From Liolophura sinensis (taxonomy: Eukaryota; Mollusca; Polyplacophora; Chitonida; Chitonidae), in NCBI RefSeq assembly GCF_032854445.1, contig NC_088300.1, positions 58,688,984-58,752,983 of the forward strand: 64,000 nucleotides of DNA, read 5' to 3'. A program made the translations under genes and the position numbers. The notes below the pieces were generated by a model. It did no database searches. It was not told the DNA's origin and saw nothing but the letters and a program-made list of their open reading frames with translations. This document shows positions 16,571 through 60,551 of this stretch, piece by piece; position 1 is the first letter of the stretch; every line of letters starts with the position of its first letter.

Positions 16571-17610
16571 TTACATTATTTATTGAATTACTTGAATTTC
16601 TCATTAATAACATCTATGTGAAATTCGGGGATACCATTTACCAACAGTGCATAGGTATTCCAATTGGTACCAATTATGCGCCTCTTTTGGCAGACCTATA
16701 CCTGTTTTCATATGAATACGACTATATGCAGAAATTACTTAAAAGTAATATCTTTAAAGCTCGATCCTTTTCATTTACCAAGCGGTATATTGATGATCTA
16801 CTGGCGTTAAATAATCCCCATATTGCTGAAGCGGTGAAGGAAATCTATCCGCCTTCATTGGATTTAAAGGAGACAACAGATAGTTCTGATGGTACATCTT
16901 ATTTGGATCTATATCTGTACAAAGACCAACAAGGTCTCCTTTCACGCCGCCTTTACGACAACAGGGATAATTTCAATATTTCAATAATTTGATATTGTAA
17001 TTATCCTTATTTTGATAGCAATATACCAAAAGGTCCTACATATGGCGTATACATATCTCGCCTTGTAGCATGTCAGATCTTGCGTTAATTGTGATGACTT
17101 AAATCTGCGTCACAAGTTGCTAGTTCAAAAACTAGTTTGTATAGGATACTCCATCAAACGCCTTCATTCTAAGTTTCTCAAATTTTACAATGAGTATAAC
17201 ACTCTCGTTGGCTGGTATGGACAGAGCGTTCGGAATCTCTGGCGATCTGCATTGTGATCAACCACATAGACGGCGCTGTTATCCCTATGTACATATCTAT
17301 CACATACGTGCTATTTAACAACATAGATGGCGCTGGTTGCCTAGTGTAACCGTCTATCTTGTATGTCATGTGTAACATTATAGATGGCGCCTCTTGTAGC
17401 ATGAGATCTTTACATATTAACGGGAAAGACGTAATCGTCCGTTACTTTTGAATCACAATCTGATCGGTTAGGGTCTATAATGCTCGTCATTTTCAAACCG
17501 CTTAACCTGGGCCTAGGGGCCGTAAAGGTAGCCATGCTAATTACATCAGCATGATGCCTTTATAAACAGTTGCAATTAAAGCGCGACTGAGATACTTGTT
17601 TAATTGTTAT
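16571..17610 (+). pseudogene. decayed reverse-transcriptase ORF, Penelope-like (tentative), copy B
   Basis: The open frame from about 16571 to the stop at 16992 carries RT palm-domain motifs: the 'LLEFLINNIYVKFG' region, then 'QQCIGIPIGTNYAPLLADLY', then the catalytic box YIDDLL, then 'SYLDLYLYKD' and 'RLYDNRDNFN'. The frame then breaks, but 'GPTYGVYIS-LV' and the LRHKLLVQKL/KRLHSKFLKFYNEYN segment continue out of frame to about 17215. The N-terminal RT part and any endonuclease are missing or broken. The GIP(M/I)GTN-APLLADL type RT is, from memory, the one in Penelope-like elements; the class is not certain. The element has several stops and frame breaks and is not functional. Confidence 0.7.
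17262..17402. repeat. three diverged copies of a unit containing CATAGATGGCGC
   Basis: ACATAGACGGCGC, ACATAGATGGCGC and TTATAGATGGCGCC recur about 60 bp apart, each followed by a pyrimidine-rich piece and TATGT-CAT. The block interrupts the 3' part of retroelement copy B, since copy A lacks it. Confidence 0.6.
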
Positions 17611-17970
17611 TTGACATGGAACTCATTCACGGACTACGAATTTGAACTTTGATACGGAATTCATGCCTGGAATATTCATTGTCTGCCCGCCATCATTGAA
17701 AACTGATGACCGCTTCTCTCTTGTGTGTTACCGGCTTTATTTCTTATTTGTATAATTTCTTACATACCTTTGTCTTTGGGAGTTAGTGTTAAACGTTATT
17801 TTGGAAATGGATCTTGCGATTATCGACTTGGAACGCCCTTTACGGACTACGAATGGTATATGAATGTCGAACTTGACGCTTATATTGCAATTATCGACCT
17901 GGAACGTCCTTATTGGTTGACGGCTGGTATACGAAAGCCTGTTTCGATGCATACATTCTGGTATGTTTGA
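17611..17970 (+). repeat. interspersed repeat shared with 57.6 kb
   Basis: Contains 'ATTGACCTGGAACGTCC-TATTGGTTGACGGCTG' type sequence that recurs at 57650-57735, and an internal partial duplication (GGAACGCCCTTTACGGACTACGAATGGTATA beside TTCACGGACTACGAATTTGAAC). It directly follows the 3' end of the RT element and may be part of that family. Confidence 0.6.
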
Positions 17971-39058: not shown

Positions 39059-42000
39059 TCAGAAGAATTCACATCCCATGCTGTCCGAGTTATCAGAGAC
39101 TGTGGAATGAGCAAGCTGAAGTTTCACTTCACAACCAATAATCCCTGTCTTGATTGGATCATTTGACTCTGAAGATTCGCTGAGATCAGACTGCGGACTA
39201 GTGTTGCCAGAGATGTCGTCAAGGTTACGACCAGCAGTCTCAGTCCTCAACCCAAAGGAAAACAAGAGTTGGAGGAAGAAGCAAGCTGCCCAGACAACGG
39301 GATAAAGCCAGGGAATCTGACTGGACAAAAGGGTCTCCCCGACAAATGGAGTCACTAAGCTGGGAATCTCAATAATGATATTCATCCACGCCATGGCCGT
39401 ACTTCTCACAGGGGTTGGGTAAATCTCGGGGGTGAAGGTGTTGAGGATGGAATAAACGGGTACCATGAAGAAGTAGCACACAACGGCACAGACAGCCCGG
39501 AGAAAGTCTACATTGACCATTGCAAAAGCAATCAGGCAGATACATGTGGAGACGGAGAAGAAGCGCAAACACCAAATACGGCCAAACATGTGACGCTCAA
39601 TCAGTATCATGGCCAGCAACAAGCCCGGAATTTCTCCAATAAAGATGGTGAACATACTGAAGTAAGGGTCCACCCCTTGCTTCATCATATACTCTGGCAT
39701 ATACATTGTCACCCCCCAAAAACCCATTGACTGCAAAACCCAGACAAATGAAGCAAACACAGTCTTGCGTCTGAGCTTCTTGGTGAACAGGTGCTGAATG
39801 CGTCCCCGTTGTGAGTTTTGTGGGCAGTCCACAAGGATTTCAACTGAAAAATGAGATTAGAAACATTTGTGATTTGTGAGAACTGATGCACTTAATAATC
39901 TGTCTAAAATGACTCTTCATGCTATGTTGAATGACTTCAGAAGCAAGCTTCTTTCTGAGAGCTTGTGCTGTGAGAATGTCAATACATTCACTTTCAGGAC
40001 AGTACCCACTGAAAAGAGGACCACTTTGTGTTTTGCGTATATGTATATGATGTTATCTAGTTCATTTCAGGCCGCCGACAACTTGGCATTTGCTGTCTTA
40101 CACGCATCAACACTCTCATTGTCTAAATAGCATGTGAGTTAATACAAACTTCTGTTTCACAGCCTCTTTTATCCCAAACCAGGTTTTGTTAACGTTCACA
40201 ATTCAACCTCTAAATCTCTTTCTTCAGTTGAATTTACGCTTAGAATTATTTTGAAAATAATGCTGAAAATAATTGGTTTTGTCACTGAAGATGACATCTT
40301 CATAGCATTATACAGATTATTTCTCTATACCCTGTATTTCTCTCAGAATGTTTCAAAATATTGGTCCCCGTTTTTCATGAAAGGGTTGAAGAATTAGGGT
40401 ATGTTGTGCAGGTTGTTCAGTTGTCTATATACGATAATTTCTAGTCATTCTCAGATGTAGTTCTCAGAATATCTCAAATGCAGTGTTGTTCATTACACTA
40501 TACCGTCCCACTTTATTCATCTTCTGCTCACAGCCTCCACCGTATGAAGTGCTCAGATATGTCAGGTCTCAAACAGAACCTTACTAGTTAAGTTTACCAA
40601 AACTGATTTATGAAGTTTTGTGAAAATGGGCCCGGTACTACATGTACATGAGACAAGAAAAAACCCCTACCAGTCACATCATCCCTGTAACATATTATCC
40701 ATACACAATATCCATCTAGTCACAGCATAACACACCATATCTATACACAACATCCATCTAGACACAGCATAACACACTATACTCACATACAACATCCATC
40801 TAGTCACAGCATAACACACCATATCCATACAAAACATCCATCTAGACACAGCATAACACATCATATCTATACAAAACATCCATCTAGACAGCATAACACA
40901 CTATACTCACAAACAACATCCATCTAGTCACAGCATAACACACCATATCCATACAAAACATCCATCTAGACACAGCATAACACATCATATCTATACAAAA
41001 CATCCATCTAGACACAGTATAACACACTATACTCACAAACAACATCCATCTAGTCACAGCATAACACACCATATCTATACACAACATCCATCTAGACACC
41101 GCATAACACACTATACTCACATACAACATCCATCTAGTCACAGCATAACACACCATATCTATACACAACATCCATCTAGACACCGCATAACACACTATAC
41201 TCACATACAACATCCATCTAGTTGCAGCATAACACACCATATCTATACACAACATCCATCTAGACACATAATAACAAACTATACTCACATACAACATCCA
41301 TCTAGTCACAGCATAACACACCATATCTATGCACAACATCTATCTAGACACAGCATAACACATCATATCCACACACAACATCCATCTAGTCACAGCATAA
41401 AACACCATATCTATACACAACATCCACCTAGTCATAGCAAAACACACCATACTCACATACAACATCCATCTAGTCACAGCATAGCACACCATATCTATAC
41501 ACAACATCCACCTAGTCATAGCAAAACACACCATACTCACACACAACATCCATCTTGTCACAATATAACACACCATATCTATACACAACATCCATCTAGA
41601 CACAGCATAACATACTATACTCACAAACAACATTCATCTAGTCACAGCATAACACACCATACTCACATACAACATCCATCTAGTCACAGCATAACACACC
41701 ATACTCACATGCAATATCCATCTAGTCACAGCACAATGCACCGTACCCACATACAACATCCTTCTAGTCACAACACATCATATCCACACACAACATCCAT
41801 TTAGTCACAGCATAACACACCATGTCCAAACACATCCATTTAGTCACAGCATAACACATCATATCCACACACAACATCTATCTAGTCACAGCATAACACA
41901 CCATGTCCACACACAACATCCATCTAGTCACAGCATAACACACCATGTCCACACACAACATCCATCTAGTCACAGCACAACACATCATATCCACACACAC

Positions 42001-44994
42001 CATCCATTTAGTCACAGCATAACACACCATGTCCACACACAACATCCATTTAGTCACAGCATAACATGCCATGTCCACACACAACATCCTTCTAGTCACA
42101 GCATAACACATCATATCCACACACAACATCCATTTAGTCACAGCATAACACACCATGTCCACACACAACATCCATTTGGTCACAGCATAACACATCATAT
42201 CCACACACAACATCCATCTAGTCACAGCATAACACACAATGTCCACACACATCCATTTAGTCACAGCATAACACATCATATCCACACACAACATCCATCT
42301 AGTCACAGCATAACACACCATGTCCACACACAACATCCATTTAGTCACAGCATAACACATCATATCCACACACAACATCCTTCTAGTCACAGCATAACAC
42401 ACCATGTCCACACACAACATCCATTTAGTCACAGCATAACACACCATGTCCACACACAACATCCTTCTAGTCACAGCATAACACATCATATCCACACACA
42501 ACATCCATCCAATCACAGCATAAAACACCATGTCCACACACAAAATCCATTTAGTCACAGCATAACACATCATATGCACACACAACATCCATCTAGTCAC
42601 AGCATAACACACCATGTCCACACACATCCATTTAGTCACAGCATAACACATCATGTCCACACACAACATCCATCTAGTCACAGCATAACACACCATGTCC
42701 ACACACAACATCCATCTAGTCACAGCATAACACATCATGTCCACACACAACATCCCTCTAGTCACAGCATAACACACCATGTCCACACACAACATCCATT
42801 TAGTCACAGCATAACACACCATACTACTGTAATGCAGAAAATTCCATCCTGTCCCCATATAACACACTATCCCATCTAGCCACAGCATGTTAAAACACAA
42901 CATATTCATAACACAGCATCCATCTAGTCACAGCTCACCATGATATGGCTGAGATATTGTCAATGTGGGGTTGAGCCATAATCACCCCATAACAAACCAT
43001 ACTTACACACATACACACAATTATGGCTTATATGGCATTTTTTGCTATTTCTCTTAATCAAGCCTGCAGACATCCGGGCATTTGCCACTTTACTTGTGCC
43101 AACACACTTTACTTGCATGGACACAGTGGTGAAAACATAATCTAAATATCATTGGAGTTAATACAAAACTATGCTTCACTGCCAACAATGTTTGTTGCTG
43201 TGTGAATTGTTCTGTTGTCCTACATACTATAATTTCCAGTTATCATCAGCTGTACTTCTCAGAGTATTGTCCAGTGTACTTCAATTCCCTTTACCTTTCC
43301 ATGTTACTTTTCACATCGTTGTCTGTTGCAGCATGCGATTTATTTTCCCGGATATGCATAATTTCGACAGCATGTTAGACTTACCATCAGGAAGTACTGT
43401 TTTGTTGTCCTTGGCAATAAGCTTCAGAACTTTTACAGCTTTCTCCGTCTGGTTGCTTGTAAGCAGATATCGTGGAGACTCATGGGTGGTAAAGATTCTC
43501 ACAAGTACAACAAAAACTGATGGAATGGCACAAGTGGCGAGGAACACCCTCCACCCGTACTTATCCAGGAGAAGCCAGGCCAACCCGCCAGCCAGCACCG
43601 CACCCAGGGCACCACACAGTGTGATGACCACCATAAAACATCCACGATTAGACCGGGGAAGGAATTCTGAAAATAGTATGATTTAAGACAAACATTAGTT
43701 ATGGCCTCAAAAAATTTAATAGTTCAATTTTGAAAGTATACGTGAAAAGTTAGTATAAAACGAAATGTATGGTTGTAAGGAAATGAAGATGTGCCCAAAA
43801 AATGGGAATCAACTTTTGATAATAGACCCTCTGTTTTATGGAATGGTGGGAAATGATGTTAATGAACATAATGAGAATGTCAGCTTAGCGACCCCTATTC
43901 AGACTCACATCCACTCAGAAAAACCACAAAAATTATGGTTAACACACTACAATAAACAGTCAACATTTGCTACATCCAAATACATGTCAATGGCTAGGTC
44001 TGGATGCCCACACACCTACCTAAGATGAGGACGAAGTTGACGGCAGATAAACCTCCAATGGCCATGGACACAAATGCCCTCAGAGTTATCAACAAGCCAA
44101 AGGACGTTGATGCTGATGATGCAAATCCAAACACCATAAACATCAGCATGCTAATCAGAAATGGCTTCTGTCTGCCAAACCGATCACTGAGAGTTCCGAC
44201 CACATATCCGCCCACAATTCCCGACACACCTGTACAGAAGGGCAACCAAGAAAAGCTGTACTTTGACAAGTTCCACTGCTTCTTCAAAGGTGTGCTTAAA
44301 AATACCAAGCACATAATTTGAGCGCACATTGCGAAATATGCCCCACCAGTCAACACCAACATTTTGATCTGGAACCAGCCAAACTTCAGTTCCATTAGCA
44401 CATCATCAAGATTTTTAGTGAGGCATCAGATGTCAGTAGATGAGATCCTGGACCTGGGTCGACAGCAGTGCAGTTCACATCCCCATTTGCTCTCGTCTCT
44501 GTCATATCCTGTCCACTTTCATCATCTAACACAAAGGTTTCTGTAGTTTCTGATGATGGCAATAAGGCTTGGTCTCTTTCCAGTTGTCTGCTCTTAGGAC
44601 AAAAATTTTGCTCATTAATTTTGTCTTCAGGATCAGGAACCTGTTTTTTACTTGACAGATCATCATCACTTACACCAATGCTGGTCTTCTCAGGTGTGAC
44701 GTTCAGGCTTTTAGTACATGCATCATCATCGTCACCATGGCAGAATCTGACCCCATCACTGTACTCTTCAGCATTATTATGGTTAGTCTGGCCCTCCATA
44801 AGAGAAGTAGTTTCTGCTTCTGACTGGGGTAGTGTCTCACACTTTTCGTCTTTTTCCATCCCTGGTGGTTCCTGTCCCTCTCCACAGACAGCCTCAGGTG
44901 TATCCCCATCTACCTGTTCTGAAAAACTACACTTACTGCTCTCATCATCTCTATCTTCTTGACTAAGTGTCAAACCCTTCCTTTCCGTATCCAT
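39059..44994 (-). CDS. SVOP-like: SV2/SVOP-like major facilitator transporter, three exons, apparent 1-nt frameshift
   Basis: Exons are 44994-44020, 43666-43385 and 39843-39059, with clean GT/AG sites. The start has a strong Kozak context (ACCATGG). Exon 1 encodes about 190 acidic, Ser/Asp-rich cytosolic residues, then 'LMELKFGWFQIKM' and TM1-TM4, including the MFS loop motif GTLSDRFGRQ and the LRAFVSMAIGG segment. Exon 2 encodes 'EFLPRSNRG', TM5-TM6 and THESPRYLL (the PESPR-type motif). Exon 3 encodes TM7-TM12 with TPEIYPTPVRS. Twelve helices are accounted for. This is the SVOP/SV2 group (SLC22-like fold) of synaptic-vesicle-associated transporters; the substrate is unknown. The acidic N-terminus is longer than in SVOP. 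The exons sum to 2042 nt, one short of a multiple of three: the N-terminal frame stops at 44395, and the transporter frame is reached only by one extra base in the five-A run at 44414-44418. Either this is an assembly or allelic deletion, or translation starts at the internal ATG (44395). Confidence 0.87.
40680..42940. repeat. 42-bp minisatellite in the last coding intron of the transporter
   Basis: About fifty units of CATCCATCTAGTCACAGCAT + AACACACCATGTCCACACACAA. Units alternate between two types, making an 84-bp higher-order repeat: CACCATATCTATACAC / CACTATACTCACATAC at 40680-41640 and CACCATGTCCACAC / CATCATATCCACAC at 41780-42830. A few 39-bp units lack three bases. Because 42 is 14 codons, minus-strand frames stay open for hundreds of codons (MLCVDMVCYAVTRW repeats). 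These are artefacts of the repeat and lie inside an intron whose flanking exons join in phase. Confidence 0.95.
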
Positions 44995-45257
44995 GGTAAA
45001 AGTTCTGAGATTCCTGGGACATCTCACAATGCAGTAGATCTAAAAAGTGTTCAGCCTTTTCGTCCAACCTCTCTGAAGGATTTAAGCAGAGAAACTTTCT
45101 AATCTGTCTCCCATGTATTATACTGGTCACAGGCACAGCTACTCAGGGACCACAGCTGCACCCAGTCTGAACACCCAGTTGTCTGCCCATGTTACCTGAG
45201 GGAAACACTTTCTAGACACATCTGTCTCTGGTCTTCTGCCTATTGTCATGGTGACAT

Positions 45258-47027: not shown

Positions 47028-47955
47028 ACATTGTGAGGTAACTCTGTAGGGCTATGATCATGTATACTCTCAAAGCCCTGTCTTCTTCCATAAGCTTACC
47101 TTGAACACCTCTGTACTTCCCTTGCTGGCTTCAGTATACTACTGCAGGGCGCAAAAAACTTTGTCTGCCTGTAGTCACAGTCGTCTCAGCTATCAGTTCC
47201 AGATAGGTGTTACCATGTGTCATCACTAGTAAACCCACACAAGCATAAAACTATAATGGAAATTGGATAAATTCCAATTCCAACTCCAACCCCCATGTTT
47301 GAATGCATACTCCTCACAGTGAGGGGAATCATGTATACAATTACCACTGCCACTACAGAGTATGAAATATGCTAAAAGTGTCAGTAGTCATCCCCCTTGT
47401 ATGGACTGTGAGGAGTATGCAGTCAAACATGGCAGTTGGAGTCCACTATTGTTTGATGCTTGTGTGGGTTTACTAATGATGACACATGAGAACACCAACC
47501 TGGAATTGATAGCTGAGATGACTGTGACTACAGACAGACAAATTATTTGGTGCCCAGCAGTAGTATACTGATTTATTTATTTGTTTATTTGATTGGTGTT
47601 TTACGCCATACTCAAAAATATTACACTTATATGACGGCAGCCAGCATTATATTGGGAGGAAACCGGGCAGAGCCTGGGCGAAATCCACGACCATCCGCAG
47701 GTTGCTGGAAGACCTTCGAGGAAGCCAGCATGAGCTGGACTTGAACTCACAGCGACCGAATTAGTGAGAGGTTCCTGCATGGGTCATTGTGCTGCGCTAG
47801 CGCACTAACCAGCTGAGCCACGGAGGCCCCCAGTAGTATACTGAAGCCAGCAAAGAAAGTACAGAGGTGTTCCAGGTAAGCTTATGGAACAAGACAGGGC
47901 TGTGATTGTATGGGTAATCACTGCCCAACATAGCTAACTGTGAGGTAGATCCAAA
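47028..47955. repeat. long inverted repeat (foldback), right arm split by a SINE
   Basis: The left arm (about 47028-47335) read in reverse matches the right arm (about 47385-47955, minus the SINE). Examples are GGTAAGCTTATGGAA-AAGACAGGGCT, CAGTAGTATACTGAAGCCAGCAA-G-AAGTACAGAGGTGTTC, and GACTGTGACTACAG-CAGACAAA. The arms differ at several per cent or more of positions. The turn is near 47340-47380. It may be a foldback/MITE-type element or an inverted duplication. Confidence 0.85.
47571..47830 (-). mobile_element. full-length SINE family 1 inserted in the inverted repeat
   Basis: The head, body and tail are complete. A perfect 13-bp target duplication CAGTAGTATACTG flanks it at 47558-47570 and 47831-47843. 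The left arm of the inverted repeat keeps the unoccupied single copy of this target in reverse at 47132-47144, a within-window empty site. Confidence 0.96.
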
Positions 47956-48738: not shown

Positions 48739-51700
48739 GTAAGCTGTTAGTGTTGTATACTATATACATGGTGTAAAAGACAGCAGAAGGCGTTTGTCTG
48801 AATGTTCTTGTGTGGGAATGATAACTTGGCATTCACTGATTCTTTGGACATCTGTAAGCATCCTCAACTCAGACACTTCATATTTTACCTTAATGTTATT
48901 CCTTTGTGTTAACTTTTAGCTCTGGATATGCAATTTGGGTGAGGTCAGAGAATATAACCAATTTTATAAGCATAGAACCACACATCTAAACCAGTCTTAC
49001 ATGAACAACCAGGAGAGCCTGATCAAGACTGATAAAGTGTTAAGATAACAACATGAACAAAATCAGTTCAGGAAATATTCATAATATATGTGATCAGATT
49101 AAATGTTTTTAAGACAGCTATACACAGTAGGGTCTTTACATGCATTCTACTAAGACAGTGGGAGTTGTAAAGGCTAGGGTTATATTTACGTGTTGATTTC
49201 CACATGTATTCTGGCGTCCTTTTTTTCCCCACAGTCACATGCTTTTACTGACTTTTCATTGGATAAAATTGAATGGGAAGATGTTCAATCTGCATGCAAA
49301 GAAAAACAGCATAAATAAGATGTTCATCATTCTAGTTTCTGTCACGTGTCACTGTTATAGATGAGATTTCCGCATTGTATTATTCGCGATTCAGACATGT
49401 TTGAAAGGATTTCCAAAGTTTTTTGTGAAAAACTCTGGATTCCAACTTCCTTCAGACAGCCTGTCTGGTCCATAGCCAGATGCTTATACCACTGCACCAC
49501 TCAAGTTGTTGTGCTAGAGTGTGGTTTTTAGACGTCTGGAAGACAGATGAACATGGTAAGGGTTGAATGTGCATATGCGTGTGCCACATGCTTTTGTCAT
49601 GTGGACTACATCTGAAAAGGGTCTCCTCTATATCTGGCCAGCCTCATTCAGGGAAGCATGAATGAATTGATGTAAGTAGTGACATAGAAAGTTACACGTA
49701 AATATTATCCTAGTCTTTACAGCTTTCAAGATGTAAAGTTTGTTGGTAATATTGTCATTATCTTATTTATATCGAATCATATGTTTTCTATTCATATATT
49801 CACAGTTGGCCGAGCCTTGACAAGTTTGAGGATGTCAGGGAGTGACAGGAGTAAGACAAAAGTGTATGTGTACAGTGGGTTGGGATGTTCTGACATGAGT
49901 TCATCTATGCTTCAGGCAGCTCTTGATAAACATGTGGACCTCAACATTCATCAAGTGGAACCCATTTCTGGGGAGAAAATAATAAATGGTATTCCTGCCT
50001 ATTAATTTATGTCTGTATGTGCATATGTATCGTTCCAAAGAAATATCACAGTTAACATATATAGGGGAGCAGATCGTGGATCGTAGCAAGGATACACAAC
50101 TGAGGTGCATGGTTGGTCAATCCTGGAGCCACCGTGGCCTAGTAGTTAGCATGTCAGTGTGGCGCAGTGACCAAGGAGCCTCTTGCCAGTGCTGTCACTG
50201 CGAGTTCAAGCCCAGCTAGCTCATGCTAGCTTTCTCTCATATCATACATGGGAAGGTCAGACATCAACTTGCAGGTGGTCATGGGTTTCCCCCAGGATCT
50301 TTTGGTTTCCCCCCACCACAATGCTAGCTGCCATTGTATAAGTGAACTATTTTTGAGTATGGCGTAAAACACCAATCAAATAAAATAACTAAATATATAA
50401 AATAAGTTGATCTCGGTCTTGAACAGGTAATGTGTACATGCATAATGAAATGTTATAACAGAAAACTCAAAATGAGACTTTCTGCAAATGAAAACTTAAC
50501 TTTTTATTGGTAAACCATCATGTTTGTGCTCAGTTTACTTGTTACAGTTAGGTTTAATACAGCTTGATCAGTTCTGAAACTCAGTAGTTTGAGAGGCCAA
50601 ATGTTTTCCAAAACTGAAATGGCTCATGATATGGCCCTGTGAACATAGTGTGGCATCTGTTTATTGAATGTATGGTTAGATTTGTGCTGTTGGTTTCAGG
50701 TACCTGGAGAACAGATGCAGCACTGATGATATTTGGAGGTGGATTTGACCTTGGGTTTATTGAGTCTCTGGGAAAGAAGGGTGTCCAGTCAGTCCATGAC
50801 TATGTATGGGCCGACGGTGGGGCATACCTGGGTTTATGTGCTGGAGGCTATTTCGCCTGTGACAGTATCGCGTTTGACAAGGCAGGGCCATTAGAAGTAT
50901 GTGGAGAAAGACACCTCAAGTTCTATCCAGGTAATTAAATGAGTTCAGGGGTAGCTCAAGTTCCACTTTACCTCAAAAGCTGTCCATATTTTTCCAGCAT
51001 TAGGGTCATTTGTCTCTGCTTTTTTTGCCTAAAAAGTTTACAAGGCAGTTGGAATAGTCATTCCGCTTGCATTTGTGCAAAAACACAAATAACTGTTAAA
51101 AAATAATACTATAGATGTAGATTGCATTCATTTCACATTGACTTAAGAGTTGTCTCCCCTATTTACCCACGGATGTTTGTCCTCAAGAGAGCTCACACAG
51201 CTTAATCCAGTTCTCAGAGCTTTACTCAGAGCTTCCTTGGTTGGGTAATTTGCCCTATAAATCATTTCATGACTTTATTCCTGCTTTCGTCCACAGGTCA
51301 AGGTATAGGGCCAGCTTACCCAGGGTTTGAGTACAAGTCCAATAAGGGTGCTGTGGCAGCTTCGACAGACTTCTCTTGCCATCAGCCATTGGGTAAACTG
51401 GGGACAATCTGCCTCTACACTGATGGAGGGGGCTACTTCACTGGCCATTCAAAAAATGGAGACAAAAAAACAGCCAGTGATGGAGCAGAGAAATGGAATG
51501 AGAAGCCCGATTCCAGTGAAGGTGTGTCAAATGGCATAGATGTAGAACGGGTCAAGGTTGAAGTTCTTGCTCAATTCCAGGATCTGCCAAATTCTCCTGC
51601 AGCCATTGTTAAGTGCCATGTAGGGAACAGAGGTGGAAAAGCCATCCTATCAGGTGTTCATTTCGAATATTTTCCTGACAAGCTTGTACCTGGAGAAAAG

Positions 51701-51808
51701 TTTTTATCTCCATCTGTAGTGAGCAAATTATTGGCCTGTGATGAGGAAAGACAACTCTTGCTTGTTTCACTTCTCAGTGACTTGGGACTGAACATCAGGA
51801 AGCAGTAA
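48711..51808 (+). CDS. free BPL_N (GATase-like) domain protein, four exons, 317 aa (299 aa from the internal ATG)
   Basis: Exons are 48711-48738, 49806-49988, 50700-50930 and 51297-51808; all GT/AG, all phase 1, 954 nt. The protein is essentially one domain, the glutamine-amidotransferase-like N-terminal domain of fungal-type biotin-protein ligases (BPL_N). Residues 30-35 are KVYVYS, 79-87 LMIFGGGFD, then the nucleophile elbow GLCAGGYFACDS with Cys117 (Cys99 of the short form), and later YPGFEYKSNKG, LYTDGGGYF and ILSGVHFEYFPD. No ligase catalytic domain follows: a stop is at 51806 and AATAAA at 52231. The first exon adds MGFGKLPVFIGRALTSLR, basic and without acids, like a mitochondrial presequence. 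The ATG at 49832 (A at -3) would give a cytosolic form. It lies next to a biotin ligase gene on the same strand, which suggests a joint role in biotin metabolism. Its own reaction is unknown. The first exon is less certain than the other three. Confidence 0.87.
50126..50400 (+). mobile_element. SINE family 1 copy, plus orientation, in the BPL_N gene
   Basis: It starts GGAGCCACCGTGGCCTAGTAGTTAGCATG (head, box A), has GCGAGTTCAAGCCC (box B), and ends in GGCGTAAAACACCAATCAAATAAAATAA. It is the only copy in this window that points along the plus strand. It sits in the intron between exons 2 and 3. Confidence 0.9.
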
Positions 51809-52230: not shown

Positions 52231-52236
52231 AATAAA
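52231..52236 (+). terminator. poly(A) signal of the BPL_N gene
   Basis: AATAAA 423 bases past the stop codon, in AT-rich 3' UTR-like sequence and before the next gene's start, so the two genes are probably separate transcripts. Confidence 0.6.
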
Positions 52237-52316
52237 GTATACAGTTTTTATTTGTTACCATGTTAACAGTCTCTGAAACTTTGCCAGAAAGTGACTAATT
52301 CATGTTTGTACCCAGC

Positions 52317-52590
52317 TACACTCTTAACAGTGTTTATGTGCACTTGACTACACTTTTAACAGAGTTTATGTATGCAGCTGCACTTTTAACAGTGTTTATG
52401 TGCACTGGACTACACTCTTAACAGTGTATATGTGCACTTGACTACACTTTTAACATAGTTCATGTACACAGCTGCACTTTTAACAGTGTTTCTGCGCATC
52501 AGACTACACTCTTAACAGAGTTTATTTACACTTAGCTACACTCTAAATAGAGTTTATGTGCACTTAGTTACACTCTTAATAGAGTTGTAC
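52317..52590. repeat. 31-bp-class tandem repeat between the two biotin-ligase genes
   Basis: ACTCTTAACAG(T/A)GTTTATGTGCACTTG-CTAC units recur at 30-32 bp (starts near 52321, 52353, 52383, 52415), about nine copies. Each unit has the inverted pair CTCTTAACAG / CTGTT-like, giving weak hairpins. Confidence 0.85.
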
Positions 52591-53287
52591 ATTTGGCAAC
52601 ACCAGTACCAAAGACTTGGCTACAACAGTAAAAAAAGGAACAAAAAAAAACCCCAGAAAGCATCAGATTCTATTAGTAAATATATATCAAAGACTTCAAG
52701 TACTCGCCGAGCTGAATTTATTTCTGCAATCATGGGAGAGTATGCTATCTTGTGAAGTACAGCTGCTTTATCTCCCCTTGATCACGTGACTCCCTGTTAC
52801 GCGAGAAATGGAGGTCAGACGTTGTTGCATAAGACGTGTGATAAATCCTTGAAATGCGTCTGTGCCAGAGAATAACTGAAGACGCTGTCTAGAATATAGC
52901 CTGAGATGGAATAGATCCGCGGAAGTTAGCCGCATGAACTCCTTTCGGAAACCCAAGTAGGCCTATACATGTATACGTGCAGTGATGCTGAGACACAAAT
53001 TATTCAACCTACATACATGACGAAATAGGCCAAAGTCGAACATGAACACGCATACATATTGATACTACGTACACGAAGCCTACAAATTCAACCTACTCTG
53101 GACGTTGAATGAGGATACTTAGTGGGGTACAGGCCACTGGTATATAGGCCTACGCAATATTTTTGCTGAATCGGACTACTTTCCGAGTAGTGTTAATCCG
53201 GAAAACTAAAGGAAGCGCTTCATCTTTACTCAGTATTTTACTTTTCAACATTTGCTGAACTGAAAGCAGTGTAGGAGATCTAAAAGA

Positions 53288-53685
53288 ATGGCTAGTGCGG
53301 AAGGCCCTGAACACAACAGTCGCCAGTTCAACGTTGATCACATGGTTAAGCACCTACGTACGAAGTATGTGGGACGGAAAGTGGTGTACAAGCCCAGTAC
53401 CGGTAGTACGATGGATGACGCAAGGGATGAGGCTCTTAAAGGTATAATTTACATGTATTTGATTTAATTGGTGTTTTACGCCACACTCGAGGATATTTCA
53501 CTTATACGACGGCGATCAGCATTATGGTGCGAGGGAAACGGGCGCAGCCCGGGGGAAAAACCCACGTTTAAGTTAAAGGGTAAAGGTGCTCAATTGCATA
53601 GGGCGTACTGAATATGGAATGCGCATGCATACTGTGAATAGATATGCAGATGGCTATTCAGATGTTATTTTATGGTGTCGTACAC

Positions 53686-53743
<58 letters not shown>

Positions 53744-56700
53744 TCATACTGTACATGTAGGCTGTCCAGAAGGGCTGGCGGTTATAGCTGACCATCAGAC
53801 GAAAGGTAGAGGACAAGGTGGTCACACCTGGAGCAGCGAAGATACAGCCAACTTGTACGTCACTTTCGTGTTCCAGAAACCAGAGAAATTCCAGGTAAGA
53901 AATAGCAGATGTCGGTGAAAGAAATAGCATTGGTATAATTATACGATGTCAGTGAAATATTTATGTGTATACATGCAGTCAATTAAGTCATACAGGCTTA
54001 TACAAATATTTTGCAGAAATGAATCCAAGGCTGCATGTTTTACTTTTTTCCCATATATTTTCATACATGTGTTAGGATATATAGAGACTATAGATTTTTG
54101 GCGAAAAATCCAAATTCGCTATAATCAAATCACACTTTTCCTGTATTTACCATGAATAGTTCAAATTACTGCCTTTCAGTAAATATCAGACTACTACCCG
54201 TACTCTTTATACATAGTGTTAACAAGATTCTGAAGTTTGAAAAAGTTGTAACTTTTGCGGTTTGGCGAAGAACATTTTAGGAACTTTATTAACAAATTTT
54301 AAACTTTACACAGAGGAGGCTGATAGTTTGTGAAAGGCCCTTATGAATTCCACTGAATTTGAGCTGATCGATTTTTGTTGCGCTAAATAACCTCTAATTT
54401 TCAGTGTGGAATGTGTATATGATAGATTGCATATATCTAAATAGTCATCAGCAGGGGCGTAGGAAACAGTTTCAAAGTAGGGGGACCAAGAGTCACAGCA
54501 AAAATGGCGAGGGTCCAGGGGGCGCCAAGGCCCCGGAAACTCTGAATGAGCTATATCGCCTTAGAGACGATTTGCCGTATCTTAGATATGCCAATTGAGG
54601 TGTTATTGACTATTTAAGCCTGCCTGAAAAAAATTGAAATAGACGTTTAGCTCAATTGTTGACACTTTTACCTGGAGAACCACGGGTCAACAAATAACAT
54701 TGTAACAATTTATCCGGAATTCAATATTAAATTCATGCTCGTCGGAGAATGGTTGGTGTAGATTGAGTAATACAAGCATTTAACTCGTATGGAGGAGAAT
54801 CGGTGGAAAGAAACATCCATGTTTTTACTGGGCCTTGATGGTAAAATTGCCGGCCTTTTCGCGCTGGCTTGCTATCGATTGAAACCAATGTCATTCACAT
54901 GTATGATCAGGCCTTTGGCTCAGAAAAAAGGCTTGAGCCCGAATTAGGGGAATTGTCAGTAACGCACCAAAGTCGGTGGTTACAGCGGTTACTTATCTTT
55001 CCTTCACCGATGAATCTTGCAACCCTTCCTAAGTGAAATGATCTTGGAGTGGCGATAAACCATAATGAAATAAATAACTCAACACCGATGAGTTCATATA
55101 TTGTACAAATATATTAATTATTCTGCTTTTTGGGCTGAATAGAACTGCAACGTCATCGCACTGAAACAGTCACTACATCAGAAAAAAAAAGATTGTGTTT
55201 GGAGACAAATGAGCCCACTTTTTTGTCAGATTACACTGCAGATGATTTGCCCTTCCATGGGAGAATTGTGTATATTAATATATGCTACTTTTATATGTGT
55301 ACTGAAAGTTAAAAGTAAACCTACATAAACCTATGTAGGCTAATTTTGGCACACTATCAGTGTGGAAAAACAGGCATACATGTATATAACTTCGTGACAC
55401 TATATCATGTGATCTGGAAAAGCAAATTTTTGAGAAATAATCAAAATTCACAACCTTACGACAATTGCAGCCATGGTTGCATGGATAGGGAAAATACAAA
55501 ACCCACGTTGCAGAAAATAACTGTTAGGCCCCTATTAAAAAAAGACCATTATTTCAGTACATGTGGCATGAACATTTGTACTTCAAAAGCTGCCTACGCT
55601 AATTAACTGTCATAAAAAGAAAGTATAACAATAATATGAACTATATGTCAAACTCCATGGAAAATATCTAGGTGGTTGGATTTATTTTAAAGTTGAACTC
55701 GACGAAGTTTGTCGGGCGGTTCCATTTCAATCGACTGACGAGCCCCATCTAAGGGAGCTAACTCACAAACATATATAAATATGTAGGCCCAAGAAAAAAA
55801 AAACACGTAGGCCCTATATTAATAGTGATGTGCAGTGGGAAAATTGCAGTTTACCATGTTTAGTTTACCGAGAAAATATATTTTCAGTAGTGTTTGTGTT
55901 ACAAGTATATATAATTTCCGGAACCTGAAAAGTTGTGTGTGTTGGGAGGGGGGGCAAAAGATATGCTGGCCCCCCCACTTTCAAAAGTGGGGGGAGAGCC
56001 CTTGGACCCTGTTTCCTAGGCCCCTGCTTCCTACGCCCCTGATCAGTAATGCAATGACATATTTGCTACTTTCTCTAATCAACGTGAAAGATACGGTTGT
56101 CATCTATATTTTTATACATGAGGTAATGAAATAAGAGTTTATCAATTTGTATAATGTTTACATTGAAAAGCGATATTTTCATCTCTATAAAGGTGTAACC
56201 AGCAATAACTTGTATGGAGGAATTTCAAGTAATTTTCATAATATACGGTCATAATATAAATTATGTTTGTACTATTATCAATTGTCAAATAAAATTGTTT
56301 GAATTACCAGATTCAAATCCGCGAAGAATTTCGTCAAGCTGGGCTCCCCATTTTCGCCAAGACAAATCGCGTTTATGGACATTTGAAGAATGTAAATGGC
56401 TGTTTGCGTTTCTTGGTCTAGAATCGTGTTGGCATTCAGGATGTGGAATTTGCTGGATCCTGTGCAGTTCTACAAGCCGTCCATGATGTTGGCGTCTCAA
56501 CGGCCAAGCTGAAGTGGAAAAACGATGTGTGGTGCTCTGGGCACAAACTGGCCGGTGCCCTCGTGGAAACCACTTCCCTCCCACAGGGTATAGATCTACG
56601 AATCAGCTATGCTGTGAAATTAACGATGTGTTGCTTTGACTAGATCTAGATTACCGTGTTACGCTTAAAAATAACTCAAGGTATGGGTATTTGATGGGCT

Positions 56701-59700
56701 ACAATGTTAACACACTCAAAAACTTAATCTGTTAATTTTAACAGGAAGTTTGTTGGCTGAGTGGTGCTAGAATGTATTCAGCTATTGCAGCAGACTGTTC
56801 TTTAGATATTCGTCACACTTATTCTGTTAATTCAAAATGAAAATTCTATTAGACTAACAGAATATTATGTTACAGTAACAGAATATATTCTAGCATCACT
56901 CAGACAACGGATTTTCTGTTAAAATCAAACAACGTTAAGTAGGAGAGCTTGTAAGGAGTCAACTCAGCTGTATAAAATCAGCGCCGTGAAAATATCAGTA
57001 GCCATGAATTGTCTAGCATAGATAACAAACACACGGAAATAGGTTGACGTTAACTTTCGTGAAACCTAAACTACTTCTAATTTGAGCACTACAGGCCCCT
57101 TATTTACTCTTTTTTTATTATACCTCCATTTTAGATGACGAACACCATCACAACAACGTCATCTTTTTGTTGGGTATTGGCGTCAACGTCAACTCTGACG
57201 TTCGGAGGAATCCGAGTTTGCGGAAGCTGGCGACCAGCGTTCGAACAGAGTTAGGTGGCTGTATCGTCTATAGAGAGGAACTGCTGGCTAACATTTGTAA
57301 TTATCTGGAGACGTGTATGCATATGGACAGGACTGACCTGTTAAAGGAAATGAACTCCCATCAGCTTTTTCAGCCAGGCTCTGCTGTAAAGGTGCTGGAT
57401 TTTGTAGACTACAGAGAGCTGTACACTGGGGTTCTTACTGAAGTGAGACACGACTGGACATGTGTTATCAAAGGTACATCCGTATGCATGCTTAATTACA
57501 ATTGTTTAAAGCCATTGTTGGACTTGTATCATAAAGTCAGTCATATGCGGTCGAAATTACTGCTTCTGTATGCATGATTTGGTCCTAACGTCATACTTTA
57601 CATACTTTCTTAGTTCTTTGGTGCGTGGGTTGTATCGAACGTCGTTTGGAAATTGGCCGCGCGATTATTGACCTGGAACGTCCATATTGGTTGACGGCTG
57701 ACATATACGAATGTCTGTTTCGACCTATATATTCAAGCCAATAAGTATATGAATTTGATTGTAAATTAAACATCATGTATATTGACAACAATATTTCAGT
57801 GTTACGGCGACGGTTAATTTCACGAATAAAAGATTCCGGACATAGTCTGAAATCTCTACCGTTCGTTAGGCTACCGAAGAGGCAAGCGCTGGATTTGAGC
57901 GCGCGACCTGATTGGGTGTATGTGGGTTTGTGTAGGCCTGTGTGTGAGTGTCCATGCACGTGGTAGGAGTTTGTGTCTAAGCAATGTATAATATCGATAC
58001 TTACGCCTACGCCATGACCATCTGCAATGCAGTCCTCAAAAAGGCAAAGCAAAACGTTATACTGTAGTCTAAACTTTTTTCAAATGCTGGATGTTCTTGT
58101 TTCTGGTCTCGTCAATGACTAGTAGATGTATTGCTGTGTATACATGTATACTTATTTAAATGCAGTCTGAATTATCAACATCCGCCAGCTGCTCCTATAC
58201 GTATATATCCTGGAACGAAGCTGGGCAGAAACTTAGTTAAGTAAACGTGCTGGCTTGTAGATTTATCGCGGAATACTGATGGTATAAGTATCGGTTACAT
58301 GACCCTCAGTTATACCTGTTACTGTGAGCCGTAATACCCCACTGTTAACTTACTGTAAGAGATCGTAAAAAAAAAAAAAAACGTCATGAATGTTGCAGAT
58401 GACCAGGGCAAAAACCACGAGGTTGGCGACGGCGTATCGTTGCGGCCTTATCCAAATCACTTTGTCTACGTCTTGTCAGAGATGGTGGAGTGTGGTGGGG
58501 ACAGTAACCTATTGTACGACACCGTACTCTCTCTACTAGACACCACTGTCTATACCGTGAAGCTGGTCAACATGACGGATCTTGACAAAGGTATAGGATT
58601 TGTTTATGGTTGTTTTTAACTTTTTGCACGATTGTTAACATACGCGGTACTCTATATATATAATTTTATATATATCATTCCCATTTGATGTTAAGGGAAT
58701 AAGGGACCAACAATTAACAGTAATAGATTTTCAAAGTGGAACATTAATCGAACTAGCGACAGATTGAATAACCGGTATAGAAGATTTTACATTGTCGATT
58801 TAGTGCTACGAGTATTTGGTGACCTCTTGATATAGATGCCCTTGTATGGCTCTACAGAAGGAAGCAAAGCCATCGAGACCCAACGTGTAGATAACAATAT
58901 CATAACCAAATGTCAGGAAATTTAATGAGAATTATTTCTACAAACAATGTTTTCTTTCTTTTGCTACATATGGGCAGGATGTCTCCATGTCGACTCAAAA
59001 ATATTAATACTAACAAAGTGAAGTATGTTGATACAGATGTATATTGTTGTTCACCGGTTTAGGTTCCAGATGCGGTATGATGCAGAAGCTTTATAACTAT
59101 TTTTGGATTCTTTCGGCATCCACCGAGGTCTTAATAATCGAAGGCCGTTCTAACGCCATCAGATAGTAATTTTCTGAAAAGACTTCAACTGCCATTTCCT
59201 TCACTTTCGAGATACAGTATAAAAGACGTCCTATTTGTGTAGTCCCACAGTTATCTCTCGTCATTGTAAGATTGTAATTTGGCTGACATCTCATGCTCAT
59301 ATTACTTTTGTTTAATACAACCAGGCGACTGGGCATGCAACTGCGACCTTCTGGTCGTTGGTGACCATGTGACTACCGCAAATGAAACCTCTAAACAAAT
59401 GATACGAAGATACGTCCAAGAAGGGGGGAATCTGTTGGCGATTGGTTCCGGATGCATTCTGGTCAGCCAATCACTGAAGAGCCTATCTGGTAAATATTCC
59501 TTCAGCATAACCTAAAAACGTTGCTCAAAGGTATCCTGGTGATGTAAAGACGGATGATTTCAAAGTCAGCCAATAAAAAAATTAGCAGATTAAAATTTTA
59601 ACCAAAACAGAATAATTCTTAATGAGTGTACCTTCCACGTCACTTTTCTAACATTGACTTTTCCACTCTTCTTCACTAGGAATGAAATGCGAGACTTTAG

Positions 59701-60056
59701 TGGCTGTGGTCAAAGGCATGCTTCAAGTTATCTTCAAGGACAAGTCAGCCAAAGATTGTTCTTTCTTTAACCCCCAATCAGAAGGTGCCTACCAGATCAC
59801 CGACACATCCGGGTCAATGACTGTCCTCGCCAGGACAAAGTCTGAAGAGGTGATAGCTGGCTGCTGTGGAGTGGGTGAAGGCCTAGTAACTATGGTGGGA
59901 TTTAACATTGAGAGGACATATGCTGAGGCTAGTAACCTACAGTGTCTCTCAGAAAAAGATGCCAAAACACTATCCAACACAGTTTATCAAAGAGACAGCT
60001 TTTTAATTGACATTCTTAAAACCCTGTTACAGAGCAAAAGCAATAATGATCGGTAG
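53288..60056 (+). CDS. HLCS-like: biotin-protein ligase with C-terminal GATase-like domain (permuted HLCS), seven exons, 508 aa
   Basis: Exons are 53288-53441, 53761-53894, 56422-56587, 57135-57473, 58399-58590, 59325-59489 and 59680-60056; every junction is GT/AG and in phase, 1527 nt. The expected reaction is ATP-dependent attachment of biotin to carboxylase lysines through biotinyl-AMP. Residues 35-44 give the STGSTMDDAR start of the catalytic fold; 66-75 KGRGQGGHTW is the biotinyl-AMP loop; 127-133 KWKNDVW has the catalytic Lys (127); 137-143 KLAGALV; 165-171 GIGVNVN. Residues about 225-285 form the C-terminal cap, ending VSLRPYPNHF. Directly after it, within exon 5, begins FVYVLSEMV, the start of a GATase-like domain like that at the N terminus of animal holocarboxylase synthetase. 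It continues CDLLVVGDH and GGNLLAIGSGCIL (Gly369 at the usual Cys), then LVTMVGFNIE. So the order is inverted. The loop Arg (R118 of E. coli BirA) is Gln70. The ATG has A at -3 and G at +4. Activity is untested. Confidence 0.9.
53455..53566 (-). mobile_element. truncated SINE family 1 in HLCS-like intron 1
   Basis: The tail half only: GATTTAATTGGTGTTTTACGCCACACTCGAGGATATTTCACTT... up to CCCGGGGGAAAAACCCACG. The tRNA-like head is absent. Confidence 0.85.
53692..53739. repeat. (AT)24 microsatellite beside a splice acceptor
   Basis: 48 bp of pure AT end 20 bases before the AG of HLCS-like exon 2 (53759-53760), where a polypyrimidine tract would normally lie. Confidence 0.97.
54452..56041. mobile_element. 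probable non-autonomous DNA transposon, about 1.6 kb, HLCS-like intron 2
   Basis: The left end CAGGGGCGTAGGAAACAG and the right end in reverse CAGGGGCGTAGGAAGCAG match at 17 of 18 bases. Both are flanked by ATCAG (54447-54451 and 56042-56046), a 5-bp target duplication. Subterminal sequence is G-rich on each side (GGGTCCAGGGGGCGCC; GGGTCCAAGGGCTCTCCCCCC). The interior is AT-rich without a transposase ORF. Two independent fragments of one family cannot be fully excluded. Confidence 0.6.
56723..56939. mobile_element. MITE / foldback element, 217 bp, HLCS-like intron 3
   Basis: The terminal inverted repeats are about 58 bp. The left starts CTTAATCTGTTAATTTTAAC and includes GAGTGGTGCTAGAATGTATTC; the right in reverse starts CTTAACGTTGTTTGATTTTA and includes GAGTGATGCTAGAATATATTC. 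Internal TTCTGTTA/TAACAGAA pairs extend the hairpin over nearly the whole element. There is no coding capacity. Confidence 0.8.
57590..57740 (+). repeat. fragment of the interspersed family seen at 17.6 kb
   Basis: Shares ATTGACCTGGAACGTCC-TATTGGTTGACGGCTG and TACTTTCTTAGTTCTTT with the retroelement region at 16.4-17.96 kb. It lies in HLCS-like intron 4, close to the exon 4 donor. Confidence 0.65.
57741..58398. other. rest of HLCS-like intron 4
   Basis: Nothing recognisable except an A-run (58367-58381) just before the TGTTGCAG acceptor of exon 5. Confidence 0.6.
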
Positions 60057-60331: not shown

Positions 60332-60551
60332 AATAAACCTTACAGACACAGCACAAAGTACTGAGAAGTGAATAACATGTTTCACCCTGCAGACCAAAAT
60401 AATGTACTAGGTACTGTGTAGTCAAATGATGCTCCTTCAAATATTACTTAAGTGAAATCTTACCTTGGCAGTTTATTTTCAATATCAGGAGCTACTGCTT
60501 CTGTTTTCAGTGAATACAAGCACACAACTGTTAAAACTTAATGGAAATAAA
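60332..60551 (+). terminator. poly(A) signal candidates of the HLCS-like gene
   Basis: AATAAA at 60332-60337 and 60546-60551, which are 276 and 490 bases past the stop. A SINE fragment begins right after the second. Which one is used cannot be told. Confidence 0.5.

Follow-up and report, generated by a model that had tools for sequence, protein, structure and literature searches.

Does this locus of Liolophura sinensis encode a biotin-protein ligase that carries its GATase-like module at the C terminus, and if so, is that ligase the animal's HLCS? The window (the whole 64,000-nucleotide stretch analysed, part of contig C6 in a genome of 609 Mb, with no N and so no assembly gaps) had been predicted to hold such a gene, on the premise that the module is N-terminal in fungal and animal ligases. 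That premise agrees with PMC12582158, where the GATase-like module of class III ligases is N-terminal in animals and fungi; for eukaryotic ligases in general, PMC3199775 places the activity C-terminally and describes one ligase per organism as usual. The gene in question, here called gene B, is in our view probably a second biotin-protein ligase, with a class I-like catalytic domain and cap to which a BPL_N-type GATase-like module is fused at the C-terminal side.

Gene B and the joint between its two parts

Gene B appears as a predicted gene, read from the DNA of one genome. Its seven exons (53288-60056, plus strand; Table 1) have GT-AG borders and consistent phases, and when joined they give 508 amino acids and a stop codon, with no frameshift or internal stop; all seven in-phase exons of the original prediction are thus present, and the junctions it named (57473/58399, 58590/59325 and 59489/59680) match the borders that we find. 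The start ATG is in good context, and an in-frame stop lies upstream of the exon 1 ORF. GC content is 0.44-0.54 in the exons vs 0.33-0.40 in the introns. A search of the animal's own genome with the gene B product gave, beyond these seven exons, one noise-level match (E 0.72; C11:16476781), which lies in tandem repeats and was rejected.

Table 1. Positions in the window of the exons and possible polyadenylation signals of genes A and B
Feature	Positions	Strand	Remarks
Gene A exon 1	49832..49988	+	further upstream exon possible
Gene A exon 2	50700..50930	+	nucleophile motif GLCAGGY
Gene A exon 3	51297..51808	+	triad His and Glu in GVHFEY; stop
AATAAA after gene A stop	52231..52236	+	candidate polyadenylation signal, favouring a separate gene
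Gene B exon 1	53288..53441	+	start ATG, N-terminal part of ligase catalytic domain
Gene B exon 2	53761..53894	+	GRGQGGHTW, biotin-binding loop motif
Gene B exon 3	56422..56587	+	KWKND and KLAG motifs of catalytic domain
Gene B exon 4	57135..57473	+	GIGVNVNS motif, most of the cap
Gene B exon 5	58399..58590	+	last cap strand VSLRPY, then first part of GATase-like module; residues 265-329
Gene B exon 6	59325..59489	+	GATase-like module; nucleophile-elbow region degenerate (GSGC)
Gene B exon 7	59680..60056	+	C-terminal half of GATase-like module, stop; GFNIE vs GPHPE of yeast BPL1
AATAAA 3' of gene B	60332..60337	+	possible polyadenylation signal, read from the sequence

The catalytic domain and cap take up the residues up to ~282. 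PF03099 matches residues 48-151 (E 6.6e-14), and the NCBIfam model birA_ligase (TIGR00121) matches residues 32-238 with 84.2 bits, passing its curated cut-off of 83.1; the best-scoring model for this part, the prokaryotic ligase model PRK08330, reaches 98.6, far under its own cut-off of 311. (A PF03099 family search of this genome found nothing, not even gene B, because the exons were matched singly.) The GATase-like module follows at residues ~285-508 (~225 amino acids), its first strand, HFVYVL, running from residue 285 and beginning no more than 3 residues past the cap, almost without a linker. The order of catalytic domain, cap and GATase-like module that had been proposed is therefore borne out by the domain matches along the 508 residues.

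It had also been claimed that one exon holds both sides of the joint, and this is sound. Exon 5 begins in residue 265, the module starts within it, and ligase matches reach into it: among the 80 prokaryotic ligase matches kept, 25 extend into the exon (to residue 265 or beyond), 24 to at least residue 273 and 12 to 280-281. Part of the cap is thus encoded by exon 5, as is also suggested by the aligned ends of gene B (SLRPY) and BirA (SLRSAEK); the BirA, yeast and human sequences compared here and below are working copies rather than database entries.

That the C-terminal part is GATase-like was likewise upheld, by a domain search of the product that passes the PF09825 (BPL_N) cut-off. Two stretches of gene B match this family, the better being residues 309-380, which start in exon 5. 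Taken alone, the tail scores 34.6 bits (E 1.3e-8; Pfam gathering cut-off 24.2), the best stretch spanning only positions 24-100 of the 283-position model, and the next Pfam family is weaker by five orders of magnitude. In the same comparison the N-terminal module of the animal's canonical HLCS (described below) scores 27 bits, making the tail at least as good a BPL_N member as the animal's known example. We also built a module profile from gene A (below), the canonical HLCS of this genome, and the yeast and human modules, leaving gene B out. Against this profile the tail scores 31.2 bits, compared with a maximum of 6.5 among the 1567 reported of 2000 shuffles, and exon 7 alone 9.2 bits, compared with a maximum of 7.1 among the 1635 reported of 2000; the ligase part of gene B scores 1.7 bits.

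Other searches gave weaker results or came back empty. Exon 7 alone found no Pfam family, and plain BLASTP of the tail against the four modules found only the human one (E 0.25), not those of gene A, yeast or contig C1. Aligned by hhalign with profiles of two sequences each, the tail matched weakly (E 0.0028 and 0.0053, with probabilities of 11% and 7%), and a PDB sequence search with the tail and gene A as queries gave chance-level matches only. The specificity of PF09825 is itself limited: across 198 genomes of a single bacterial phylum it matches in 40, above the cut-off in 38, and in 37 of the 198 the best match is at 24-38 bits and mostly covers model positions ~49-94 only. Those matches are perhaps cobyric-acid-type GATases, which is a guess on our part. 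One of the 40 is strong (86.8 bits). Across 20 genomes with ligase loci, PF09825 gave one match.

A neighbouring BPL_N gene and a separate HLCS

On the same strand, 1.5 kb upstream of gene B, lies a gene of three coding exons and 299 amino acids (gene A, 49832-51808). It is a nearly full-length BPL_N protein (PF09825, E 2.2e-55, positions 2-267 of 283) that has no ligase domain, and it is 29% identical to the yeast N-terminal module (E 1e-25). A plasmid search gave no match for gene A; among plasmids searched with gene B, the five records listed of 39 are 25-28% identical to it. Prokaryotic and viral contigs searched with gene B's own peptide patterns yielded no relative.

The same genome carries a class III HLCS on contig C1, in the usual order, with GATase-like module, linker and catalytic exons on one strand. 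We mapped it within 30 kb around a VKWPND match, with human HLCS as the query, and the piece located runs from the module through the catalytic exons, the cap not being among the parts located. The degenerate VKWPND pattern has four matches in the genome: one is this HLCS exon, and the other three (a pair on C11, another on C3) were judged by eye to be repeats and rejected. Two matches to the pattern GxGRGGNxW were also rejected, one for an internal stop and the other because, although it spells the motif, it lies in a G-rich tandem repeat; that search is blind to the HLCS on C1, whose motif is split by an intron. As a separate observation, contig C8 holds eight hemocyanin beta-sandwich domains in tandem; the domain family is molluscan, in keeping with a mollusc genome.

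In the catalytic part, the C1 HLCS is 51% identical to human HLCS, and gene B is 28% identical to the C1 HLCS. By its genome sequence, then, the animal has two ligase genes, and gene B is not the species' HLCS with an inverted order, as had been supposed. The original prediction thus stood in its domain order, its joint and its kind of module; it fell on the HLCS identity, and it had overlooked gene A.

Origin of the catalytic part and the tail

For the catalytic part of gene B, BLAST gives 38% identity and 109 bits to the best bacterial ligase (L015), 30% and 65 bits to human, 28% and 58 bits to the C1 HLCS, and 23% and 46 bits to yeast; since the bacterial sequences had been selected as resembling gene B, this ranking leans towards bacterial closeness. 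A quick tree with 84 rows groups the three HLCS sequences (support 99) to the exclusion of gene B, whose long branch (1.82) is placed next to them with a support of only 26.8. A clade uniting gene B with the animal HLCS is not rejected by the AU test (p 0.36).

These last two results are what one might expect if gene B had arisen from the HLCS of this animal by duplication and circular permutation, a reading that we consider unlikely. Against it stand the scores just given, by which the catalytic part is nearer the bacterial ligases (in the set chosen for likeness) than the C1 or human enzymes, and also the introns. Gene B has four introns up to the cap. Three of them lie where the C1 piece allows a comparison, and all three sit at other positions than its four introns; the closest pair is five columns apart and differs in phase. 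(A common intron near KLAG was dropped once the true C1 junction was used.) The tail, moreover, has an intron in common with gene A and not with HLCS: the first intron of gene A (residue 53) and the fifth of gene B (residue 329) each interrupt a Gly codon in phase 1, with a Trp two residues further on, and the corresponding region of the C1 HLCS is one exon with no intron. All 15 alignments (five MAFFT settings on each of three sequence sets, hence not independent of one another) place the two introns in one column. The second introns of the two genes differ, with an offset of -32 to +9 columns. A match by chance is not to be neglected: we estimate it at ~0.6% if any codon position is allowed and at ~5% if only phase 1 sites in G-starting codons are counted; 77 of the tail's 227 codons start with G.

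An intron common to gene A and the tail, with none in the C1 HLCS, suggests that the tail derives from a gene of gene A's type and not from a permuted HLCS. The simplest and most likely reading of these sequences is that such a gene was duplicated and the copy captured downstream of a ligase gene, to which it became fused.

Predicted activity and place among the biotin ligases

The active-site motifs of biotin ligases, including Lys138, are kept in gene B, with exceptions at the Arg118 position and in KWPND. The positions that are invariant among gene B, the Pyrococcus horikoshii ligase and E. coli BirA include S40, T41, Q64, G67, G69, W75, K127, W128, N130, D131, K138, G141, G165, G167 and N169. 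Where BirA has Arg118, gene B has Gln; we dropped the idea that this is unique to gene B, as Gln also occurs in 8 of the 74 prokaryotic ORFs parsed of 80. In KWPND, gene B has Lys for Pro, a substitution found in 0 of the 79 prokaryotic ligases parsed of 80. Judged from sequence, these two substitutions could alter the activity of gene B. Together with the long branch, they would fit a product that is not a working ligase at all, i.e. a regulator, a decoy or the product of a decaying gene. We regard this as quite improbable, given seven clean exons without frameshift or stop, the retention of Lys138 and the other motifs, and a score above the cut-off of the birA_ligase equivalog-domain model. 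The kept motifs instead suggest ordinary two-step biotinylation by gene B as a second ligase: it would make biotinyl-AMP from biotin and ATP and then transfer the biotin to a target lysine.

A still less probable arrangement, which we think very unlikely, is that genes A and B form one gene of 811 amino acids (module, catalytic domain, cap and second module) from which the gene A stop is spliced out: the two lie on the same strand 1.5 kb apart, the gene A module resembles the yeast N-terminal module, and a weak donor-like GTAATA across the gene A stop (51805) joined to an AG at 53273 would leave 811 codons in frame, but gene A has a stop followed by the AATAAA at 52231, gene B has its own well-placed ATG and upstream in-frame stop, the candidate donor lacks G at -1, eight AG dinucleotides within 53200-53290 mean that some in-frame splice pair is expected by chance, and the ~60-100 residues found between module and catalytic domain in HLCS would be absent.

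With genes A and B read as separate genes, their modules differ at the amidotransferase triad. Gene A keeps Cys, His and Glu in alignment with yeast Cys89, His215 and Glu217 (numbering from PMC12582158), and the gene B tail has Gly, Asn and Glu at these positions, so that two of the three are lost and only Glu is kept. The C1 HLCS has Cys, Tyr and Asp, so gene B is not alone in its imperfect triad, and human HLCS has Ser, His and Glu. A catalytic class I glutamine amidotransferase carries a Cys-His-Glu triad, which the tail lacks, and glutaminase activity of the tail is improbable. The yeast enzyme, too, is described in PMC12582158 as having no GATase activity in vitro, and the N-terminal module of the yeast and human ligases is there proposed to help select or hold the protein substrate. 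By analogy, the tail of gene B may serve a similar role from the opposite end of the chain, helping to select or hold the substrate without amidotransferase chemistry. Since it follows the cap almost without a linker, it would reach the active site by a different route than in class III. More speculatively, gene A might supply an N-terminal-type module in trans.

Compared with known systems, gene B resembles the class III enzymes (yeast BPL1, human HLCS and the C1 HLCS) in having catalytic domain, cap and a BPL_N-kind module in one polypeptide. It differs from them in that its module is C-terminal, with none at the N terminus, where class III ligases have theirs, and its catalytic part is 23-30% identical to the three that we compared. 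Like class I ligases, e.g. that of P. horikoshii (35% identity over the stretch compared), it has its catalytic domain near the N terminus, followed by the cap; unlike class I ligases, which consist of catalytic domain and cap only, it adds a module of ~225 residues after the cap and has spliceosomal introns. Gene A shares with the gene B tail the kind of module and one intron position and phase, and differs in its intact triad and in having no ligase domain. It is a tentative idea, and one that we would not expect to hold, that gene B stands for one more structural class among the biotin ligases of eukaryotes (catalytic domain, cap, module) that exists beside a canonical HLCS, arose by capture of a neighbouring BPL_N gene, and is accompanied by an intact-triad product acting in trans. 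A literature search by titles and opening lines, with most subscription papers outside its reach, found no paper treating the reversed order, and the architecture may already be present unremarked in databases.

If real, a module at the opposite end of the chain, in an animal that also has the standard enzyme, would allow a test of whether substrate selection depends on where in the chain the module sits. The intact triad of gene A beside the degenerate tail of gene B likewise offers a natural comparison of a possibly active module with a degenerate one.

The residue at the BirA Arg118 position

Arg118 of BirA is the residue altered in BioID. By sequence comparison, the corresponding position in gene B, the putative second biotin-protein ligase with a C-terminal GATase-like tail, is occupied by Gln, as it also is in 8 of the 74 prokaryotic ligase ORFs that were parsed (out of 80).

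Repeats and other open frames in the window

The second intron of gene B holds an element of about 1.6 kb, flanked by inverted repeats (28 nt at 86% and 18 nt at 94%), that is probably a small DNA transposon. A tandem repeat lies between gene B and the stand-alone BPL_N gene (gene A), and a SINE-like repeat, read by eye, recurs in the window, with words that include gtgttttacgcca and acttatacgac. Long stretches of a minisatellite (51 copies of a 42-bp unit) are open on both strands. Other open frames resemble, by eye, exons of a candidate transporter-type membrane protein.

Coordinates of the features described (window positions unless stated)
Feature	Position	Strand	Contig
Minisatellite	40696-42823		NC_088300.1
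Transporter-like open frames	43311-45039	-	NC_088300.1
SINE-like repeat	near 47600, 50350, 53470, 60615		NC_088300.1
Tandem repeat, 32-bp unit	52316-52586		NC_088300.1
Gene B segment with Gln	53761-53894	+	NC_088300.1
Intron 2 element	54450-56041		NC_088300.1
Degenerate exon-start copies, canonical HLCS	L012-L014 (joined pieces), 17168-17619	reverse complement	C1

The canonical HLCS gene

In the canonical HLCS, carried on another contig of the same genome (C1), the start of one exon, GRGGNAWMSPVGCAV, is repeated in degenerate form several extra times before the full exon; these copies are a local tandem duplication around a catalytic motif.
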